Shown here: positions 25,750-37,780 of the stretch, one piece after another | Numbering within the stretch: position 1 is the first letter of the stretch | Layout: every line of letters starts with the position of its first letter | Assembly (NCBI GenBank): GCA_009937445.1 | Contig: JAACFM010000006.1 | Coordinates: 1 to 64,000 of the forward strand | Length of the DNA: 64,000 nt | Direction of reading: 5' to 3' | Source: Gammaproteobacteria bacterium | GTDB lineage: Bacteria; Pseudomonadota; Gammaproteobacteria; Steroidobacterales; Woeseiaceae | The notes under the pieces: model-generated | What the model was told of the DNA's origin: nothing | Databases searched by the model: none | The model's input: the letters and a program-made list of their open reading frames with translations, nothing else | Made by a program: the position numbers and the translations under genes

Positions 25750-28700
25750 ATGATAAGGCGATTAAACGCCAGCAGTTGGGAAAGTGTATTGATGAGCGAG
25801 CACATTGTAAGACGTACATCTTATGTTCGATTGAATCGTTGGGTGCGTCAACCGAGTTTCAAGACGGGTCTAGCGTTCTTACTATTGTTACTGATCGGGG
25901 TATCCGTCAACGGACAGGACTTCGTCACTCCAGGCCCCAATGTCAACCTCATCGGCGCTACGCCAAATCCTGAAAACCCCCTTAATATCCCCGATTTCGG
26001 CCTCAAGCAGCAGCAGGAACCGTCCTGTGTTATCAGGCCGTCGAACAACGCCTACATCATGTGCGCATACAATGATCTACGTGCGTCCGACACTGAGGTC
26101 CAGGGTGATTCGTGGATTGGTTACTCGGAGTCCGGTGACAAAGGCCTGACGTGGCGGAGCTACCTCGCGCCGGGCTACAAATTGCACCCCACAAACTCTG
26201 TACAAGGTGTGGGCTTCGCGGCAGATCCCAGTCTTGTGGCGATCCCGGGGTCCTACGCATTACCAGACTCTGACTCGGTTGACTCGCCAGGGCTCACAAT
26301 CCTGAATTATATCGGCGCAAACCGGGACAGCAGCGTCGGCGTGCTTGTCGCCCAGCGCTTTGTCGATAACGAGCAGGAAGACCAACGGCACAATTTGCCT
26401 GAGAATCGACATTTCATCATTGCAGACGGTTCGTCCGGGCGGTTTATCGACAAGCCGGCATTTCTTTTTGTTCCAAGCGACTCTGGCTCCCAGAGCTATG
26501 TCCAAAAGACTATTAATATCGAAGGACCTGGGGATCCCATAGATGTCTCAGTTACGAGCGGGACCCTGGTGGTTGCCTACGCGGTATTCACCGGCAGCAG
26601 CAGCGTAAAGGTTTACATACAAACCTCTATCGATTTCGGCGAGAACTGGTCGAATCCGACGAAAGTTTCGGAAAGCTTGAACGAGGTTACCGGCGTTAGC
26701 CTGTCCGCAATTGGACAAAAGGTCGTCGCGACCTGGCGACAAAAAGCAGACACCAATAATCCCGATGCGGTTATTAGTGCCGTGAGCAAAAACAATAACC
26801 TGACAAGCTGGACGAAGCCCACAGAAGTATTCGCGTTTTGCCCATTTGATCAGCCGGCGACCGGCGTAAGTTTTCGTTCCTTCGCCTTTCCCTGGGTTGC
26901 CAACGACGGTAATCGATTCTGGACCTTTGTAGCGGATCGGCGCTTCGACGCGCCCGGTGGGGAGAGCACCAGCTGTGACCCCATACCGGAACTGCCGGGT
27001 ACCTATGACGGCATCCCACGGATCGTCGGCATGTCGTCTACGGATGGCATCAACTGGTTCGGCGGTGACTCTGCTAACCCAAACATTCCATTTATTGTAG
27101 ATGCGAACACGGACGACTCCAGCGGCAAACCGCTGGGCTTCCAGGTGATGCCCAGCGCTGTTGGTACCAAGGGTCGAATCGATCTTGCCTGGTACGACAC
27201 GCGCCGCGAAGCCTTGGGCTTGCCGCTTCAGGGGACGGGCTCGCCCGAAGAGCAAATTCCGTTGATTTACGACTACACCAGCACCGATGGACAAAGCAGC
27301 GCAAGAGTGTTGCGCAAAGCCGATGTCTGGATGACCCGCCTGACCGCCAGTGGCTGTGGCTCGAGCGGTGCCTGCGTCCCCGACATCCAATCACCGGTCC
27401 GTGTGTCGCAATACCCGGTGGCCTTCGCACCCAGCAAAGAGGCTGGTGTCCCCTACGCCACGCCCCTGGAGGTCGAGGCGCATCTACCAAATCACCGTCT
27501 CTATGCGAGCGGCACGCTCGCGTTTAAAGGTGACTACATTGCCATCGAAACGCCCCGGCTGCGGAAGACAGTGAGCGGCGCGTGGGTAAATAACAGCAAG
27601 CCGGTGGATTCCGGCTCGGACTTAGCCCCTTCCGCTTTCGAGGATGTCTTTGTCGCTTGGGGTGACAACCGCGACGTCCGGGTTGACTACGCATCGCCGT
27701 ACTTTCCGGCCGCAGACGACGACGACGGGCAAGTGCCCTATACGCCGCCGGGCGGCCCGGCCAAGACGACGTCCACTGGTTTTAAACTGGGCGAGATTCA
27801 GGAAGGTGCCAGCGAGCCGCTGGTGCAGGTTGATTCCGAGCTCAAAGCCGTTACAGAGTCCGACGACTCTGAGGACCCGACCACTCCAGCGGATAACACA
27901 CTTACCTGCAGCGTCGGACAAGATTTCAGCCGCAGTCGCGATTCAAACATTTATGGGTCGGTCGTTGCCGATGCGCCGAGTCTTAGAGCGCCGACAAACA
28001 ACAAGCCGCTCGGCACGATACAGCGCATGTTCCCGCTGGTGCTGAATAATCCCGACACGACCGGCCCGGAAGATTTTTGCCTGGTCATAAGTAATCAGCC
28101 GCAAGGTGCACCCGTAGTCGGACGCGCCTCGTTCTTCCAGCTGCCGGCCGTTCCTCCTTTTGATGTTCGCCCGGGCCAAGACCCACCGGCGCTGACGCGA
28201 CTTCCAGTGACCGTGGGGCCAGGATCGAGCGAATCCCGTGCAATATTTGTTTTTGCGAGCGCGGATGACGTCGTTCGCGTCGATGCGTACCTTGATGATG
28301 GCACTGAAGCTTGTGGTGCAAATCTCGCATCCAGCACTTTCGACGGCACGCTGCAAAACAGCATATTCATCAGCGATGGCAGTCTTCTTGAATCCGGTTA
28401 TTGCGCTACGACCCCGACGCCAGACGCATGTCTGCCGACGGCTATCGAAGAGACACACAATATTTCGCTGGCCAGCCTGAATCTGCAGGCGCCAGTCATC
28501 AAAGCGTCCGTATCGCTAAATCTGCAGGCGTTAAATCTGCAGGCACCGGCGCTGGGCGCGCTAAACCTGCAGGCGTTGAACCTGCAGGCGCCGACGATAG
28601 CTGCGCTGAACTTGCAGGCGCTCAACCTGCAGGCACTAAATCTGCAAGCGCTAAATCTCCAGGCACTGAACCTTCAGGCGCTGAATTTGCAAGCCTTGAA

Positions 28701-31590
28701 TCTGCAGGCCCTCAATTTGCAGGCCTTGAATCTGCAGGCCCTCAATTTGCAGGCCTTGAATCTGCAGGCCCTCAATTTGCAGGCACCGTCCCTCGGTGAC
28801 GGTAGTAATCCGAACAGTCCGACGATCCAGCTCGAACAGGCTGTTCTCAGTGACAATGTCTATTATCAAGACGTCACCTACATCGTAAATACGGATGCCA
28901 ACGTCACGACCACGTACTCAGCCGACATTAAACTGGATGTCAACAAGCTGAAGACGAATCCTCTGGTAGACGAGGACCCGGTCGTGCAGCTGATCGCGTG
29001 GACGCCAAACAGCGTTAACAGCGCGAGCGAGACAGGCTCAGCTGCGTGTGGCGGACCGGAGCCAGGCTTCCAGGCACAGGTGCTCGCCTTTACGACACTG
29101 GATGCGCTGAATCTGCAGGCGTTGGATCTGCCGGAAACCATTAATCCGGAAATACAGAACCCCTATAAAGGCACGATTTCATTTACCGGCATTCCGAATC
29201 AGAAAATCGCCCTTACCGTTCGAACCTGGGCGACGGGTGGCACCAAAGACAAAATGGTACTGGAGTTCAATAAGTGGGTCGCCTGCATGAATGAGGATCA
29301 GGCTGCAGAGGATCCGGAATATTGTTCGAATCAGGGTATTGGCAACGTGATCAAGTTCGGTGCGAGTGCGCAGGGTTGTGCAACGAGCGAGAAGGTCTTG
29401 ATTGATGAGGTTACCGGCGAACCCGTTATTGATCCGGCTACTGGTCTTCCAATTCCCGTTTATGACGATAGCGACTGTCTGAACGATGAAGACGAGAAGA
29501 TTCGCCCGGATATCGAGCCGCCGACTGTGTTTCCGATTGATCCGAGCCTCTTTTTACCCCCAGTGCCTTACACCACGACGAGTTCGGATCCGATAGAGAT
29601 CACCATTATTTGGCCGATTACGGCAATTGACGAGTTCGACAGCCTCGACTTCGCGTGTACCATCGGCGGTGAAATGGTTGACATAGTTGACGTATCGCTT
29701 GGTGGCGACAACAACGACGAGCTAACCGTCAGGTTTGCAGACAAGTTCCCAATCGGCACGACGCCGGTCAGTTGTTCCGTGACGGACTCATCCGGGAATG
29801 CGACGACGGCGGATTTCTCTGTTGAAGTGATTGACGGCGTGCCGCCGGTGTGGACAACGCCGGATGACATTGTTGAGGTTAATGCTGACCCGGACACGGG
29901 CACCGTGGACGCTAGCCTGCTTGATCTCGAATCCTACGTCGATGCAACCGACAACGTGGGCATCGTGGGTAGTGTCAGCTGCAGCGCGGACCCGAGTACG
30001 ATAACAACCCTTACCCCAAGCACCGTCACCTGCACGGCAAGCGACGGCGCAGGAAACGAATCGGAGGGGACGTATTCGATCATCGCGAAGGACATAACGG
30101 CGCCGATGTTGACGCCTCTGAGCAGCCTTGTTCAGGTTGATTTGGGCGAGAACATGGACAAGGTGGACGCCAGTACCCTTGATCTCGCATCCTACGTCGT
30201 TGCAACCGACAACGTGGACACCGTGGTTGGTGTCAGCTGCAGCGCAGTACCGAACCTGATAACGACCCTTAGCGAAAGCACGGTCACCTGTAAGGCAAGC
30301 GACCTAGCAGAAAACGAATCGACGGTGACATATCAGATCATCGCGAAGGACATAACGGCACCGGTGTTGATCCCGCCGAGCGACCTTGTTGAGGTTGATG
30401 CGGACCCGGACACGGGCACTGTGACCGCCAGCTCCGCTGTGCTCGCATCCTACGTCGTTGCAACCGACAACGTGGACACCGTGGTTGGTGTCAGCTGCAG
30501 CGCGGACCCGAACCTCATAACGACTCTTAGCGCAAGCACCGTCACCTGTACGGCGATCGACAGCGCAGGAAACGACTCGATGGCGATGTATTCGATCATT
30601 GCGAAGGACATAACGCCGCCGGTGTTGACGCCGCCGTTCGGCACTGTTGAGGTTGATGCGGACCCGGCCACGGGAACCGTGGACGCTAGCCTGCTTGATC
30701 TCGCATCCTACGTCATTGCAACCGACAACGTGGACACCGTGGTTGATGTCAGCTGCAGCGCGGACCCGAACCTCATAACGACTCTTAGCGAAAGCACCGT
30801 CACCTGTACGGCGATCGACAGCGCAGGAAACGACTCGATGGTGACATATCAGATCATTGCAAAGGACGAAATTGCACCAGCGATCAACGCGTCAAACCGT
30901 ACGGTATACCGTGACTATGCCAATATGATGTACCCATTTTGGGGAATCATAGATGCGGCTGAACTATCCTCCAGAGTGACTGTGACCGATGGTGGCGTTG
31001 ATATAACGAGCAGCGCTAACCTCAGCTGCAGCCGGGATGATCCGCCCGAACAAATCGAACCACCAGCCGATCCCGAGGCACCGTTACCTCCGCTTCTCAC
31101 CGACTCTGACTTCGTGTTCATTGACGGTGATGACATTCTCGATGAAGACGAGCCTTACAGCATCACCTGTACGGCATCAGACTTGTCAGGCAACCCGGGG
31201 ACTGCGTCCTTCTTACTCACGGTTAGCTATCTGTACGACATCAATCTCGAGCTGCCGAAAGGACTCGCGCACGCCGGCTCTACCATACCGATTGACTTTG
31301 ATTATCGTGAATGGGATGGCGGCGCGATTATTGACAGCTCCCTCATTCCAGTCCGCGTGTCGTGGGCGAAGATGACAGACAATAGCTGTGAAATTCAGGA
31401 CACAGACGTCCCCGAAGAGTCCACCGGGTTAGGTGAAGATTCCGGCAACAGCGACTTCCGCTATTCATTCAGTTCAGACCAGTGGCAGTTCAGCTGGCAG
31501 ACGCCCCCATTGATTGGCTACTACCGGCTGGCGATCTCGCCGCCGGGCAAGTTTGTGGACAATGCCACGGAGTGCGTCAACTTAAGGTAA
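25750..31590 (+). CDS. Giant secreted modular protein: sialidase/BNR-like region, LNLQ pentapeptide array, HYR-like repeats, PxKF-like C-terminus
   Basis: 1946-codon ORF; hydrophobic leader GLAFLLLLLIGVSVNGQ; DKGLTWRSYL; LNLQA repeats; four 86-residue repeats (ITAPVLxPPSxLVEVDADPDTGTV...TVTCTAxDSAGN); GLAHAGSTIPIDFDY near the end. A start at 25792 (MSEHIVRR) is equally plausible. Confidence 0.85.
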   Translation: MIRRLNASSWESVLMSEHIVRRTSYVRLNRWVRQPSFKTGLAFLLLLLIGVSVNGQDFVTPGPNVNLIGATPNPENPLNIPDFGLKQQQEPSCVIRPSNNAYIMCAYNDLRASDTEVQGDSWIGYSESGDKGLTWRSYLAPGYKLHPTNSVQGVGFAADPSLVAIPGSYALPDSDSVDSPGLTILNYIGANRDSSVGVLVAQRFVDNEQEDQRHNLPENRHFIIADGSSGRFIDKPAFLFVPSDSGSQSYVQKTINIEGPGDPIDVSVTSGTLVVAYAVFTGSSSVKVYIQTSIDFGENWSNPTKVSESLNEVTGVSLSAIGQKVVATWRQKADTNNPDAVISAVSKNNNLTSWTKPTEVFAFCPFDQPATGVSFRSFAFPWVANDGNRFWTFVADRRFDAPGGESTSCDPIPELPGTYDGIPRIVGMSSTDGINWFGGDSANPNIPFIVDANTDDSSGKPLGFQVMPSAVGTKGRIDLAWYDTRREALGLPLQGTGSPEEQIPLIYDYTSTDGQSSARVLRKADVWMTRLTASGCGSSGACVPDIQSPVRVSQYPVAFAPSKEAGVPYATPLEVEAHLPNHRLYASGTLAFKGDYIAIETPRLRKTVSGAWVNNSKPVDSGSDLAPSAFEDVFVAWGDNRDVRVDYASPYFPAADDDDGQVPYTPPGGPAKTTSTGFKLGEIQEGASEPLVQVDSELKAVTESDDSEDPTTPADNTLTCSVGQDFSRSRDSNIYGSVVADAPSLRAPTNNKPLGTIQRMFPLVLNNPDTTGPEDFCLVISNQPQGAPVVGRASFFQLPAVPPFDVRPGQDPPALTRLPVTVGPGSSESRAIFVFASADDVVRVDAYLDDGTEACGANLASSTFDGTLQNSIFISDGSLLESGYCATTPTPDACLPTAIEETHNISLASLNLQAPVIKASVSLNLQALNLQAPALGALNLQALNLQAPTIAALNLQALNLQALNLQALNLQALNLQALNLQALNLQALNLQALNLQALNLQALNLQALNLQAPSLGDGSNPNSPTIQLEQAVLSDNVYYQDVTYIVNTDANVTTTYSADIKLDVNKLKTNPLVDEDPVVQLIAWTPNSVNSASETGSAACGGPEPGFQAQVLAFTTLDALNLQALDLPETINPEIQNPYKGTISFTGIPNQKIALTVRTWATGGTKDKMVLEFNKWVACMNEDQAAEDPEYCSNQGIGNVIKFGASAQGCATSEKVLIDEVTGEPVIDPATGLPIPVYDDSDCLNDEDEKIRPDIEPPTVFPIDPSLFLPPVPYTTTSSDPIEITIIWPITAIDEFDSLDFACTIGGEMVDIVDVSLGGDNNDELTVRFADKFPIGTTPVSCSVTDSSGNATTADFSVEVIDGVPPVWTTPDDIVEVNADPDTGTVDASLLDLESYVDATDNVGIVGSVSCSADPSTITTLTPSTVTCTASDGAGNESEGTYSIIAKDITAPMLTPLSSLVQVDLGENMDKVDASTLDLASYVVATDNVDTVVGVSCSAVPNLITTLSESTVTCKASDLAENESTVTYQIIAKDITAPVLIPPSDLVEVDADPDTGTVTASSAVLASYVVATDNVDTVVGVSCSADPNLITTLSASTVTCTAIDSAGNDSMAMYSIIAKDITPPVLTPPFGTVEVDADPATGTVDASLLDLASYVIATDNVDTVVDVSCSADPNLITTLSESTVTCTAIDSAGNDSMVTYQIIAKDEIAPAINASNRTVYRDYANMMYPFWGIIDAAELSSRVTVTDGGVDITSSANLSCSRDDPPEQIEPPADPEAPLPPLLTDSDFVFIDGDDILDEDEPYSITCTASDLSGNPGTASFLLTVSYLYDINLELPKGLAHAGSTIPIDFDYREWDGGAIIDSSLIPVRVSWAKMTDNSCEIQDTDVPEESTGLGEDSGNSDFRYSFSSDQWQFSWQTPPLIGYYRLAISPPGKFVDNATECVNLR
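28474..28797 (+). repeat. LNLQ pentapeptide-coding array (15-bp units)
   Basis: Five interspersed [SA]LNLQ units, then 12 uninterrupted ALNLQ units at 28603-28782; 28693-28782 is three perfect 30-bp copies of gccttgaatctgcaggccctcaatttgcag. Confidence 0.97.
29842..30873 (+). repeat. Four tandem 258-bp (86-residue) HYR-like domain repeats
   Basis: Repeat starts at 29842, 30100, 30358 and 30616, next segment at 30874: exact 258-bp spacing; near-identical stretches between repeats 3 and 4. Confidence 0.93.
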
Positions 31591-31636: not shown

Positions 31637-33814
31637 TTATTGAGCAATCCGTTCGCTGGCGTCTTTTGCCAACGGCCCACCATTCAGTCTGAGCTGCAGA
31701 AATGCCTGATAGTAATCTGCGGCAGCCTCGGTCATACCGAAGCCTTCGGCAGCACGGCCTTGCCAGTAAGGCAGTTCCGCAAGATAACGATACGTAGGCG
31801 TATCGTCCAGAAAGACAAATGTGGCCTCGCCAATGCGCGTATCAGCGCAAGTACGTAATTCATCTGCGGCCTCCGCAAAATGCCCGCCATCAAGATAAGC
31901 ACGACCGAGTTGTAAACGAATCAACCAGAGGTCTGACATTTCAAGCGCCGACCTCAGCTTATCGATAGCCGCGATATAGTCTCCCTCCTCGCGCAGCAAG
32001 CTGGCACTGATCATCTCTGCGTAAGCGCGAGTTTGTATTTGCAGCTCTTTACCCAACCGCTCCGCAACGGTACGCGCCGTTTCCATATCACCAGCACCAA
32101 TCGCAACCAAAGCGGCTGCCACGCTATGCGATGTCTGCTGAGAATTTGCCAGGACGCTGCGTGCCGCTTCAGCCGCCCGCAATAAATCACCTTCGGCCAG
32201 ATAGGTCTCAGCGATAATCACCAGCTTGCTCGCCGCGCCCGCGGTGTTGCCATCGGCAATAGCGGACTCCACCTCCGCCTCAAGAAGTTGCCTTACCTCG
32301 GCATAATTGCCTAAGTAGGACTCTACATCCGCAAGGCCGATGATTCCGGCAGACTGCCCATACTCACTCTTGGTCGCTTCCCGCATCTGCTGATAGGCAC
32401 CGCGCGCCTCATCGTATTCTCCTCTGTACATCGCGGCGGCGGCCACCGCCAGATAGGAGACTGCATAATCGGGATCGTCTTCAATAAGGTCCCTAGCGAC
32501 TCGATCCGCTTCCTCAAAATCACCGGAATAAGTTGCTAAAAGCGCGAAGTTTGAGCGGTACAGAGCGCTATCAGGATACTGCTGCAAAAGAATAATGCCT
32601 TCATCAGACGCGCGCTGGAAATCCAATGTCAGGAAAGCAACTACCTGCAAATTATTGCGCCCCGCTGCGTCACTCGGAAACCTATCTACAAGCAAACCAA
32701 AGCTCTCTACAGCCTTCTCGTAATTGCCTGTGACGACCGTGTAATACAATCCCAGAGTCCTCAGGCGCTCCCTCTCAGTCATCGTACCCAACAGCGTCAA
32801 TGCCCGTTTCCACAGCTTGTCCGCTTCCTCCGTCTTCCCCAATTTCGTCGTACTTAAGGCCCAGCCGGAAAATGCGCGACCAAAACTCGGGTCTTTTTCT
32901 GTCGCACTTCGATACAACTCTATAGCTTCATCGTGCTTGCCGTCATAAGCGAGAGCCAGGGCACTGACGTAATCGCGAGCTGCCTCAATAGACGACGCTG
33001 TAAAAGTCTCAACTGTCGCAACATTTTTACCCTTTGCCGAATCGTCACCCAGTGCATCACGGACCTCTTCAGAAAGTTTACCGACAGCCGTCAACACGTC
33101 GTTGCGTGAACTTGCTTTAATGCTGACATCGAAAACCTGTTCATTACTGAATAAATCAAGCCCGGACATGGCAAGCTCATAGCCAGCACCGGCGGGTATG
33201 ATAGATCCCGCCAAAACCATCCGGACACCCTCCCTCGCAGCGACCAGTTGGGCCGTCGCTTCGTCCAGTTCATCACTGCCTTCTTTATTTAAGGTCTTCG
33301 AAATTTCTTTCGCACTGGTTCGAAGATACGCCGAAATATGAGGAGCTGACTCAACACCAATAGTCAATGCCTGCTCCAACAGTCCATCAAACATGGCATC
33401 GCCGGTCTGGTTATCAAAATCGGCAATAAGCACCGAGACCGGCTCAAGTTCAACCGCCACTACAGTGCGAGTACCCGTAACATTCATGTACACCGAGAAG
33501 ACGAGAGCAACTACCAACACCCCGATGACGGCGAAATCCGTCTTGCGCCCACCAAACGGCAGGATAAGCGTATCGGTTGGATCCGCCTGAACCTCGATAC
33601 CGGATTCAGTAACGTCGTAAACCCAGGCCAGCACTGCGGTGACGGGAAAACCGATTATCGCGACAATAATGACGGCGCGTAGGGCCCAATCTGGTGCGTC
33701 GAATGCCGGCAGCATAACGCTGGAAGCTTCGATCAGAATCCAGCTGATACCGACATACAGGCCGACGGTACGGAAAACCTCCCGACGTCGTAGCTCTTTG
33801 ATCAGACTATGCAT
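31637..33814 (-). CDS. Membrane-anchored TPR protein with TolB-N-like region
   Basis: N-terminal LIKELRRREVFRTVGLYVGISWILIEASSV, transmembrane segments, VSVLIADFDNQTGDAMFDGLLEQAL, then TPR-like helices. Confidence 0.8.
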   Translation of the reverse strand: MHSLIKELRRREVFRTVGLYVGISWILIEASSVMLPAFDAPDWALRAVIIVAIIGFPVTAVLAWVYDVTESGIEVQADPTDTLILPFGGRKTDFAVIGVLVVALVFSVYMNVTGTRTVVAVELEPVSVLIADFDNQTGDAMFDGLLEQALTIGVESAPHISAYLRTSAKEISKTLNKEGSDELDEATAQLVAAREGVRMVLAGSIIPAGAGYELAMSGLDLFSNEQVFDVSIKASSRNDVLTAVGKLSEEVRDALGDDSAKGKNVATVETFTASSIEAARDYVSALALAYDGKHDEAIELYRSATEKDPSFGRAFSGWALSTTKLGKTEEADKLWKRALTLLGTMTERERLRTLGLYYTVVTGNYEKAVESFGLLVDRFPSDAAGRNNLQVVAFLTLDFQRASDEGIILLQQYPDSALYRSNFALLATYSGDFEEADRVARDLIEDDPDYAVSYLAVAAAAMYRGEYDEARGAYQQMREATKSEYGQSAGIIGLADVESYLGNYAEVRQLLEAEVESAIADGNTAGAASKLVIIAETYLAEGDLLRAAEAARSVLANSQQTSHSVAAALVAIGAGDMETARTVAERLGKELQIQTRAYAEMISASLLREEGDYIAAIDKLRSALEMSDLWLIRLQLGRAYLDGGHFAEAADELRTCADTRIGEATFVFLDDTPTYRYLAELPYWQGRAAEGFGMTEAAADYYQAFLQLRLNGGPLAKDASERIAQ

Positions 33815-33973: not shown

Positions 33974-35979
33974 TTGCGACAAATACTGCCGGTGTGCGCG
34001 CTCGGGCTAGCGCTTATCTCGCCGGTTTCAGCAAACACAGACGGCGTTGACCTCGACGAAGTGATCGTCACCGCGTCCCGACGGCCCGCCGGATCGGATG
34101 GGCTTTCAACAGCGTTAAGCCTTATCGACCAAGAGAGCGTCCTGCAGCAGAAGTTAACGACCGATGCCCTGATGTCGAATATCGGCGTGTACCTGCAGCA
34201 AACAACACCAGGCCAGGGAGCAGCAATCATTCGCGGCTTGAAAGGTTCAGCGATACTGCATCTGGTCGATGGTATGCCGCTGAGCAACGCTATGTTTCGC
34301 AGCGCTCCAACGCCTTATCTCGCTCTTGTTCCAACGACCGCGGTAGAGCGTGTCGAAGTGGTTCGAGGGACTCCTGCTTCGCTGTACGGAAGCCAGGCCG
34401 TTGGCGGAGTGATTCAGGTTGTCTCGCGAGTACCGAGGTTCGACTCCTCCGACCAGCAAATCCGACGTGACGTGATGGTCTCTTTCGATACCGCCGAGCA
34501 ACTAAGATCGGTCAAAGGTATCGTCGATTTCGGCAATCAGCGGCTGGCGGCTTCGTTGAGTGGCGAATATCTGGAGACAGGCGACCGACGGATCGGTGGC
34601 GGTAGTCGTGTATCCCCTTCTGGATACTCCTCAAAGGCAGCCAGATTCGCTGTTAGTGCAACACCAACGGAATACCAATCGTGGATGCTCGATCTTCATT
34701 TTGTCGAACAGCCGAAAACTCCAAGGATTGATGAGCTGGTACCCGGCTTCGGTCAGACTGAGCCCTCTTCTTCCGAGTTTTTCTTTTCACCCAGCCGACG
34801 GCTGTTCGCACATGCACAGCATATGAGTAACGATGCACTGTTTGAGCTTGACTGGCGCATCGACGCAGCCTGGCAACGTGTCGACGACGATCGAACGACG
34901 CGAAATTTTGAGGCCACGACACGACGCTACGAATCAAATAGCAGCGACTTGTTTGCATTGTCTGTTAGCGCCACCAGTGAAACGGAGCGCACGTCCTGGA
35001 TAATTGGCACCGACATCGAAACAGACGAAATCAGGAGCGCTCGCACGGAAGAAGACATTTTCACAATGCTATCTACAACGGTGCAATCACGCTTTCCAAA
35101 CAGCTCACGAATAGATCAAGCTGCAGTATTTGCAAACATCGACTGGCACGTGTCGGATCCTCACCAGGTAAGCGGTGGAATTCGATTCACCAACGTGAAC
35201 ATTGATATTCCAGACACGCCTGCAAATGATGCTGCAGCAATCAAAATACAGCGATTCAGTGGCGATCTGGGTTGGGTATTCTCATTTAGCGATACGTGGC
35301 AACTAGTCGCCAACGCCGGGCTCGGATTCCGGGCGCCGAATATCGCTGACCTCGGCACACTGGGTGATCGACCGGGGAATCGTTTCAACATACCCAATAC
35401 CAATCTGAAGGAAGAGAGTGTCCGGCAGTTGGACGTTGGTGTGCGGCATCACACTGAGGATCTTCGATTTGAACTCATGATCTACGCTCTGCGTTTTGAT
35501 GATCGAATCACATCGGTTCTCACCGGCGAGGTTACGGCTGACGGACGCGACGTCGTACAGAGCATCAACGCGACTGAGTCTTCCATACATGGCGCGGAAG
35601 CCGGATTGGACATCGATATCTCAGACAGCGCTAGCGTTCACGCCGTCCTGAATTACACCTGGGGCCGGGAGACGCAGGAAACCGGAACGACTCAACCGGC
35701 CGACAGAATTCCACCACTCAGCGGCGAACTGGGCCTGCTGGTCGATCTGAATGCGGAATGGACATTGGAAAGCTGGTTGAGAGTCTCGGCTGACCAGGAT
35801 CGACTCAGTGATCGCGATATTCGCGACGTTCGGATTAACCCGGAAGGCACCGCGGGATGGGCGATCCTGGGAACGAAGGCGAGCTGGAGGCCAAACGACG
35901 TTTGGCCTATCGTGTACACGGCTCCGGCATTGATTCGCCGGGGCGAAATTTCCTGCTTAGCGTCAGGGCGACGTGGTAG
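33974..35979 (+). pseudogene. TonB-dependent receptor with apparent frameshift near the 3' end (raw ORF runs 33974-36094)
   Basis: Signal peptide, DEVIVTASRR TonB-box region, plug (VDGMPLSNAMFR, VERVEVVRGTPASLYGSQAVGGVIQVVSR). The canonical C-terminus LAYRVHGSGIDSPGRNFLLSVRATW* is in the -1 frame, ending at 35979. Confidence 0.75.
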
Positions 35980-37780
35980 CCGGATGTTTGCAGGTGTACG
36001 GCGGGCCGTCGATGCTAATGGGAGAAATACCCTGTGGCTCAAGCACCGCGACCAACGCTGGGAATTTCGTATGATCGAAATACGGATAGCCTAAAAAACT
36101 GGAAAGTCCCTGGAGGTCCAGGTTGGCATCAATAACGAGTTGATGAGCCTTCTGCGGATTTCCATAAACGACATTCACGACAAAACGACTGCCGACATCA
36201 TCGGCGTCACTTTCGAGAAGCTGGAAGTATTTTTCTGCTGCAGCAAGGTCGCCCTCCGCGCAGGCCTGTCGCAGCAGCATCATATTGACATTCTGTTCTG
36301 GAAAATCGCTGCGCCGAACAGAGTCAATAAGTGCTCGCGCTTCATCGGTTGCGCCGCCCCAGAGCAATACGCGATGCCCTTGATAGCCTACAAAAGCATG
36401 ATTCGGGAAGCGTTTGACAGCATCACGTGTCATGGCGACCGCCTCCTCCGTCAAACCGGCAAACAGCATGTTATTCAATAGCTGATTTAAGGTCAGGGCG
36501 TCGTCGCTAACAATGCGCTGGATTTGCGGCAAATATTTTTCGGCAGTCGACCTGTCACGCAGAATCGCTGCGGAGCTAACAACCGCGTTCAGACCATCAA
36601 AATCGTAAGGGTGTTCGGCTAAAAGGCGCTCGGCAAAGTTCATGGCGTCGCGATAACGAAGTTCCGCAGAGGCTTTTAGGGCCTGAAACCTCAATTTCAT
36701 GGTTGGATCGCCAGCAAATCGAATTGCCGCGTCTATCGTACGCTCAAAATTTTCCATGACTTCATCGGCGGTGAATTCGCTTGCACCGTACCCAATGTTC
36801 GCAATCCCCAGCTCATCAACCCAATAGAGCGATTGCCGATAATAGGCCTGTGCAAAATTGGGGTCAGTCCTGGTGGCACGCTCATGGCGATCAAGGGCCG
36901 CACGCCAATCTTCGACACTGCCGTCTACACCAAATTTGCCTTCGAGTGCGAGCCCTTCGAGATAGGCCTCATAAGCTGCGACAGACGCGGTCCCTGCCGA
37001 AACCATTTTCTTCAGCGCCGCCGGATCCATAGCGGTCTTGAGTGCGTTCGCAATCTCAAACGCCACGTCTTCCTGAATGGCAATGACGTCTTTCGGCTTG
37101 CGATCGAAAGTTTCCGACCACAGATGGAAGCCGTCGTTCGCACGAATTAGTTGCGCCGTCACGCGCAAACGATCACCGCCGCGGCGAACAGAACCTTCGA
37201 GAATATGGGCGACGCCCAGCGCAGTCGCTATGGCCGAAATATCCTGATTCTGGCCTTTGTACTGAAAGGACGATGTTCGTGACGCGACCAGCAGATCCGG
37301 TGTTCGCGCCAGCGAGTTCAGAATCTCTTCGGTCAGACCATCGGCGAACCATTCCTGCTCCTTGTCTGATGACATGTTTACGAACGGCAAGACCGCGATG
37401 GAGCGATCAACTGCGACGTCGTCGACAGGGATGTCGGTTGCCTTGTTACTCCACATTGAGTAACCGAGAGCGACAACGAGAGCTGCGATGATGACGTAGT
37501 TGAGCGTACGGCCGGTGGAATGTGTAATCGAGTCAGATGCATCAACCTCAGCCGTCTTTTTCACGCCCTCCGGCGTCATTTCAAATGCCCAGGCAAACAG
37601 CAATGCAAAAGGGAGGCCCAAAAGCAGCAGACCAGCGAACGTTTTTCCGACCCAGACGGGCGCCTCGAACATATCAAAAAGAATATCGCCAACCTGCAAT
37701 GCGACCCAACCCAGCACCATGTAGGCAATCCCTACACGCACCACATTGCGGCGTTTCAATTCAGCGAAAAGTTTTCCCAT
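35963..37780 (-). CDS. Membrane-anchored TPR protein with TolB-N-like region (adenylate-cyclase-associated type)
   Basis: LFAELKRRNVVRVGIAYMVLGWVALQVGDI, RSIAVLPFVNMSSDKEQEWFADGLTEEILNSLA, VRRGGDRLRVTAQLIRANDGFHLWSETFDR. Confidence 0.85.
   Translation of the reverse strand: MGKLFAELKRRNVVRVGIAYMVLGWVALQVGDILFDMFEAPVWVGKTFAGLLLLGLPFALLFAWAFEMTPEGVKKTAEVDASDSITHSTGRTLNYVIIAALVVALGYSMWSNKATDIPVDDVAVDRSIAVLPFVNMSSDKEQEWFADGLTEEILNSLARTPDLLVASRTSSFQYKGQNQDISAIATALGVAHILEGSVRRGGDRLRVTAQLIRANDGFHLWSETFDRKPKDVIAIQEDVAFEIANALKTAMDPAALKKMVSAGTASVAAYEAYLEGLALEGKFGVDGSVEDWRAALDRHERATRTDPNFAQAYYRQSLYWVDELGIANIGYGASEFTADEVMENFERTIDAAIRFAGDPTMKLRFQALKASAELRYRDAMNFAERLLAEHPYDFDGLNAVVSSAAILRDRSTAEKYLPQIQRIVSDDALTLNQLLNNMLFAGLTEEAVAMTRDAVKRFPNHAFVGYQGHRVLLWGGATDEARALIDSVRRSDFPEQNVNMMLLRQACAEGDLAAAEKYFQLLESDADDVGSRFVVNVVYGNPQKAHQLVIDANLDLQGLSSFLGYPYFDHTKFPALVAVLEPQGISPISIDGPPYTCKHPATTSP

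Follow-up and report, generated by a model that had tools for sequence, protein, structure and literature searches.

Architecture of the host protein

The window, i.e. the whole 64,000-nucleotide stretch of a Woeseiaceae contig that was analysed, carries on its forward strand the gene of a large modular protein, probably secreted or displayed on the cell surface. The features of this gene and of its downstream neighbour are the following.

25750..31590, + strand: gene of the 1946-aa modular secreted protein (P0001), start codon uncertain (alternative Met15 at 25792)
25864..25914, + strand: probable Sec signal peptide core, TGLAFLLLLLIGVSVNG, from direct reading of the translation
25915..27820 (limits approximate), + strand: Asp-box/BNR-like region, probable beta-propeller according to a sub-threshold PF13088 match and Asp boxes
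28000..28380 (limits approximate), + strand: all-beta domain (GTIQRMF...SRAIFVF), Ig-like in the structural model, directly 5' of the array
28474..28797, + strand: pentapeptide array, 17 [SA]LNLQ units with APVIK, APALG, APTIA and APSLG
28693..28782, + strand: recent 30-bp duplication in three copies, within the array
28858..29238, + strand: C-flank domain (YQDVTYIVN...VTTTYSADI...LTVRTWA), 3' of the array, Woeseiaceae-specific marker (model A2)
29104..29133, + strand: echo copy ALNLQALDLP in the C-flank domain
29870..30867, + strand: HYR-type repeat of 258 bp (86 aa), present 3.9 times
31267..31524, + strand: C-terminal domain resembling PxKF ('rightmost'), sub-threshold (NF038114, 29.5 bits for a cut-off of 35)
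31637..33814, - strand: downstream, convergent gene of a TPR protein that has a membrane segment at its N terminus

A sequence-only reading of this DNA had placed a sialidase-like region beside the array. This region has two Asp-box motifs (at aa 128 and 293), and in a profile search BNR_2 scored below its cut-off (20.1 against 31.4 bits). Sub-threshold PF13088 matches occurred in the window protein and four relatives, the open frames of the relatives (some of them incomplete) hold 0-3 Asp boxes each, and a PDB sequence search with the N-terminal region returned no match. In two relatives (L029 and L035), Asp runs such as DDDDDDCDDDDDDDD are inserted in the propeller-like region, adjoining arrays of different motifs.

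Both domains flanking the array were modelled by AlphaFold2 as all-beta (pLDDT mostly 70-92, and mostly 73-92 for the one 5' of the array), with weak matches to Ig/MSP-type folds, none at E <= 0.001. The HYR-like domains announced by the earlier reading were borne out by PF02494, which reached 29.9 bits in the window protein for a cut-off of 21.7, and 191 bits in the relative L029. The HYR-type 258-bp repeats (29870-30867) are ~82% alike, pointing to a fairly recent duplication of whole HYR domains. The convergent TPR gene (31637-33814, - strand) also adjoins the relative genes in L043, L044 and L046, with 43-71% identity. Two TPR-type proteins are encoded near the gene (31637-33814 and 35963-37780, both - strand), and they have similar N-terminal membrane segments.

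The ALNLQ array

Seventeen LNLQ units extend over aa 909-1011 of the window protein, preceded by S in the first two and by A in the others, and 12 of them form a contiguous run at 28603-28782. The translation thus confirmed the counts of the sequence-only reading, as well as the five-residue register kept through the interruptions APALG and APTIA and the additional ALNLQALDLP copy at 29104-29133 (aa 1120). The first LNLQ copy (aa 909) lies 13 residues ahead of the second, and is therefore three residues out of register with the rest. A degenerate two-unit pattern found 13 matches in the 3.29-Mb genome, every one within this array; reversed as a control, it found none, so the array is not a product of chance.

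At the DNA level, GCCTTGAATCTGCAG followed by GCCCTCAATTTGCAG constitutes a 30-bp unit that occurs three times at 28693-28782, corresponding to the last six contiguous ALNLQ units. This recent duplication is the sole recently duplicated part of the array, the units outside it differing by synonymous codons. A second reading frame is open for 132 aa over the array (28401-28799, + strand, SAGAEFAGLES-type repeat); it is a by-product of the 15-bp period, with no evidence of a gene.

Distribution and diversity of the arrays

Relatives were found with a model (A2) of the C-flank domain. This domain was detected in 25 of 107 Woeseiaceae genomes and in one of 399 genomes of the phylum, the window's own; as judged by this model, it is confined to Woeseiaceae among the genomes searched, and all the named relatives belong to this family. 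Out of 28 C-flank loci, one was cut by a contig end, leaving 27 with enough upstream DNA for array counts.

All 27 loci harbored a period-5 array 0-30 residues upstream of the C-flank domain, built on differing motifs (given here so that the N/A/T position leads): ALNLQ, APGIQ, TPTFQ, NPDVQ/NPDIQ, NPDEF/APDEF, NPDQF/NPDQY, NPLIE/NPLLE, NPELI, NPAVL/NPAIF, NPNLK, NLDLE, NANLL and NPAYR. Across these motifs, position 1 of the unit is N, A or T, position 2 is P, L or A, positions 3 and 5 are variable, and position 4 holds a hydrophobic residue in all but the NPD[EQ][FY] group. Proline is present in every unit for 21 of the 27 consensus motifs, with N ahead of it in most. The commonest array size is 16-18 units, within a range of 8-38 in relatives, the departures including about 10 units for NPNLK, 28 for NPAVL and several blocks for NANLL. 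At two loci of one assembly, breaks fall in or next to an array, one contig ending within it (L036, G025:C97 end) and another beginning just past one (L071, G025:C93 start), and array counts from draft genomes are thus probably too low.

Within Woeseiaceae, generic NPx-phi-x arrays were located only in these genes. Among 369 genomes of the class, such an array with diverged codons was present in one only, the Woeseiaceae one, and three other class genomes contained short, nearly identical DNA repeats matching the pattern. Short NPGMG and NPVVK arrays with near-identical DNA units were seen in two other gammaproteobacterial genomes (L105 in G710 and L106 in G586); by their codon pattern, they are unrelated to the Woeseiaceae arrays. 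A mobile or viral origin was also considered and set aside: the ALNLQ array was absent from viral contigs, and neither the plasmid search with the C-flank domain nor the phage search with the N-terminal region gave a match. The generic NPx-phi-x pattern matched 56 viral contigs.

Selection on the pentamer

Comparing units within each of the 27 arrays gave pS values of 0.50-0.96 and pN values of 0.00-0.14, i.e. pN/pS ratios of 0.00-0.21, with pS 0.749 and pN 0.053 in the window array. Purifying selection on the pentamer is strong, and synonymous sites are near saturation within arrays. Two NPELI relatives (L067 and L072), whose C-flanks are 76% identical, encode the same residues in all of their 17 units, and their synonymous codons are only 47% identical in register, an agreement no better than out of register. 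In a closer pair (L061 and L062, C-flanks 95% identical), orthologous units correspond one to one in their codons (0.81 against 0.51, p=0.0002), indicating no unit turnover on the time scale that separates them. Both the near-saturated synonymous sites and this correspondence argue against present-day homogenisation as the cause of unit likeness. Ancient gene conversion, with synonymous sites diverging afterwards, may also have produced uniform arrays in the absence of any ladder constraint, given that comparisons between motif classes have reached synonymous saturation.

These codon data led us to reject an unconstrained slippage product, i.e. a purely mutational tandem repeat. The recently duplicated 30-bp unit of the window is what such a process would leave, but each of the 27 arrays combines a low pN/pS with synonymous differences close to saturation, and a single homologous place is occupied across the family, which makes this origin scarcely conceivable.

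Motif replacement with a conserved layout

Odd units hold their position across motif classes. N[YFL]GF[EA] is unit 10 of 17 in the NPLIE, NPLLE and NPELI arrays, and is also unit 10 in the 16-unit array of L069. In the six members of the NPD[EQ][FY] group (NPDEF, APDEF, NPDQF, NPDQY), once an 8-residue insertion is allowed for in the unit numbering of L054, unit 6 is always xPDL[YF], and Y is the last residue of unit 4. One NPDEF unit remains in the APDEF array. Such positional conservation argues that the motif was replaced in place, in most units, with the layout kept.

On a tree of the C-flank domain (132 columns, with several open forks), 12 changes, the minimum possible, account for the 13 motif classes, against a mean of 21.5 after shuffling. 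The window's C-flank falls in the grouping TPTFQ,(APGIQ,(ALNLQ,ALNLQ)), with supports of 100/99, 97/91 and 100/99, its successive sisters being L053 (ALNLQ), L050 (APGIQ) and L051 (TPTFQ). The odd A-P-x-phi-x units of the window array look like relics of the motif kept in the APGIQ and TPTFQ sisters. From the sequences compared, selection appears to keep the units alike rather than to keep any single motif.

Such selected uniformity with lineage-specific motifs would also be expected of a multivalent docking or homotypic assembly array, in which each unit is one binding site and motif switches track the partner. The array charge, which differs strongly by lineage (about -28 to +5), is consistent with this scheme, but no partner was found and the single conserved neighbour seen is the TPR gene, leaving it improbable. 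The place of the echo copy in the C-flank domain reads NPDL in many relatives and is an exact array motif in two lineages (ALNLQ in the window and NPNLK; loci noted: window, L063 and L066), for a permutation p=0.036 over 18 motifs with relatedness ignored. Exact echo copies could reflect docking of the array on the C-flank domain, conversion, or chance; as proof of docking they were rejected, the overall permutation test being weak.

Structural predictions and the pentapeptide-repeat question

By established stereochemistry, proline at the presumed i-2 position would remove a backbone NH used by a type II turn, which counts against the stacked-turn reading proposed below. The sequence-only reading had compared the five-residue period with that of pentapeptide repeats, and period and register do resemble theirs; it had also noted Leu at a position where a small residue is usual. 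The amended pentapeptide consensus, (A/C/S/V/T/L/I)(D/N/S/K/E/I/R)(L/F)(S/T/R/E/Q/K/V/D)(G/D/E/N/R/Q/K), allows Leu at i-2 (PMC7337050). ALNLQ fits this consensus at 4/5 positions, NLDLE at 5/5, NANLL and NPNLK at 4/5, and the other Pro motifs mostly at 1-3/5. Pentapeptide-repeat proteins are recognised from at least eight tandem units, and the window array has 17. As for membership of an already characterised repeat family, the array shares the step and register of pentapeptide repeats but misses the PF00805 and PF13599 cut-offs, which were reached by no array tested (window array, 16.0 for a cut-off of 38; best relative, 30.7 for 38 and 15.9 for 20.2).

Sequence searches of the PDB matched the window array to a designed protein (beta1, E=3e-8), to Alr5209 (2.8e-5) and to others up to 1e-4; for the NANLL array of L068, the best match among pentapeptide-repeat proteins of solved structure had E=4e-16. 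A scrambled control of the window array's composition (ALLNQ) reached E=3e-12 against pentapeptide-repeat proteins, and neither the permutation ANQLL nor the NPELI array had a PDB pentapeptide match. Because the scrambled sequence matches some solved proteins better than the real array, these matches carry little meaning, and specific homology drawn from them was not relied on.

It is conceivable that all the arrays, with those containing Pro as divergent versions, truly belong to the pentapeptide-repeat family (Rfr, right-handed quadrilateral beta-helix). The 4-5 of 5 fit of NANLL, NLDLE and ALNLQ, the L068 match and the 4 coils of Alr5209, equalling 16 units (PMC7337050), count in favour of this membership. 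The missed Pfam cut-offs, the score of the scrambled control, the unmatched NPELI array and the absence of P at i-2 in the consensus weigh against it, and we consider it unlikely.

Structure prediction gave no solenoid. With a 25-row alignment, AlphaFold2 returned an array pLDDT of 24-35 and no strands; from the single sequence, it returned a helix with scattered models and a mean pLDDT of 75 to 40. As AlphaFold2 over-predicts beta-solenoids on perfect repeats (PMC11795689, which reports a smaller bias for AlphaFold3 and RoseTTAFold-All-Atom), their lack here argues mildly against an ALNLQ solenoid, and the mixed alignment weakens this argument. The low pLDDT is itself uninformative since the alignment rows carry different motifs, and these values from mixed-motif rows do not amount to predicting a disordered linker with confidence. 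Considering the two AlphaFold2 runs, the missed Pfam cut-offs and the equally matching scrambled control, the beta-solenoid foreseen by the sequence-only reading is not established. We found no support for its amyloid-like stack, and Asn/Gln ladders are not a conserved feature, given that NPELI, NPLIE, NPAVL and others occupy the homologous place and that Pro is in every unit of 21 of the 27 motifs; amyloid or ladder formation as a family trait was accordingly rejected. The signal for a coil period of four units went in the expected direction, short of significance (lag 4, z=1.2; lag 8, z=1.6). A continuous alpha-helix is unlikely: proline in every unit excludes it in the 21 relatives concerned, and the window array has Pro in its four odd units.

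The same prolines underlie the main rival to a stacked spacer, namely a flexible or elastic turn-rich linker in which repeated Asx-Pro-type beta-turns, with no fixed stack, would space the propeller from the Ig/HYR domains in an elastin- or extensin-like manner. The mostly N-preceded Pro of 21 of the 27 consensus motifs and the low array pLDDT are compatible with such a linker, as is APGIQ, which resembles elastin-type pentapeptides. Extensin_1 (PF02095) matches were also obtained, but at <= 50 bits for a cut-off of 105, and they are compositional. A linker of this kind has no need of identical units, whereas purifying selection acts strongly on the pentamer, the size is often 16-18 units, and odd units are kept in position across motif changes. 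We regard it as rather unlikely.

Proposed explanation

Tentatively, and with slightly less than even confidence, we propose that the array is a homologous domain, a stacked beta-turn spacer whose unit uniformity is imposed by packing and whose motif has been replaced by lineage. In this secreted, cell-surface-type protein family of Woeseiaceae, it would join a probable Asp-box propeller and Ig-like domain to a second Ig-like domain, followed in most members by HYR domains. Each five-residue unit would probably make one beta-turn of a regular stacked spacer, following the logic of the pentapeptide-repeat (Rfr) helix; since each would pack on the next, all units would have to be alike. The motif would thus be strictly kept within a lineage and, on change, nearly all units would switch together. 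In the window's lineage the motif would have become ALNLQ, from an A-P-x-phi-x ancestor that APVIK, APALG, APTIA and APSLG may still reflect as relics. The homologous place, the step of five residues, the frequent size of 16-18 units, the fixed positions of odd units, the selection on the pentamer and the replacement of motifs along the tree come directly from the sequences compared; stacking, the function as a spacer and a ladder constraint behind the uniformity are our inferences. An extension of this proposal, which we hold to be distinctly unlikely, is that the selected property is unit likeness itself, a uniform ladder with in-place motif replacement in nearly all units within a lineage, the motif perhaps being a code, different in each lineage, by which these surface proteins stack or assemble with their own kind.

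With 13 or more natural motifs at a single place, the array offers a test bed for the folding needs of a stacked five-residue repeat, for how a repeat protein swaps its motif without loss of function, and for how structure predictors treat short repeats. Woeseiaceae are among the widespread marine-sediment bacteria (PMC7082342).

Comparison with known systems

Pentapeptide-repeat proteins (PF00805/PF13599; Rfr, e.g. HetL, Alr5209, Qnr) have in common with the Woeseiaceae arrays a five-residue step, one hydrophobic residue per unit and ~16 units, and the NANLL, NLDLE and ALNLQ arrays are close to their consensus. In contrast to these proteins, Woeseiaceae units are near-identical within an array, Pro is at i-2 in 21 of the 27 motifs, the family cut-offs are missed and the fold is a proposed one; furthermore, the array occupies one place in one protein family, with its motif replaced between lineages. 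Elastin-like and other Pro pentapeptide repeats (e.g. VPGVG) share X-P-X-hydrophobic-X units, each able to form a beta-turn, whereas the Woeseiaceae arrays are bacterial, of similar unit number across species, with positional odd units, strong codon-level purifying selection and usually Asn ahead of Pro. HYR secreted proteins with BNR/Asp-box propellers have the same modular architecture (PF02494 above cut-off), to which the array and the C-flank domain are additions.

In repetitive structural proteins such as those of spider silk genes, concerted evolution makes units alike within a protein and different between lineages (PMC9779670). By contrast, synonymous sites of the Woeseiaceae arrays are near saturation, so present-day homogenisation does not explain their likeness. 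Literature searches with six array pentamers returned no paper on such an array among the matches listed, and the literature searched, with subscription journals mostly outside its scope, gave no description of a one-place, one-family array with near-saturated synonymous sites in which the motif is replaced and the layout persists. Tandem pentapeptides are already known; the novelty lies in the kept layout, the replaced motif and the near-saturated synonymous sites of arrays that we do not class in the pentapeptide-repeat family. Usual repeat domains keep their motif while the units drift, or have units made alike by ongoing DNA homogenisation. The Woeseiaceae array has units that are alike despite near-saturated synonymous sites, a motif replaced between related species and odd units held in position.
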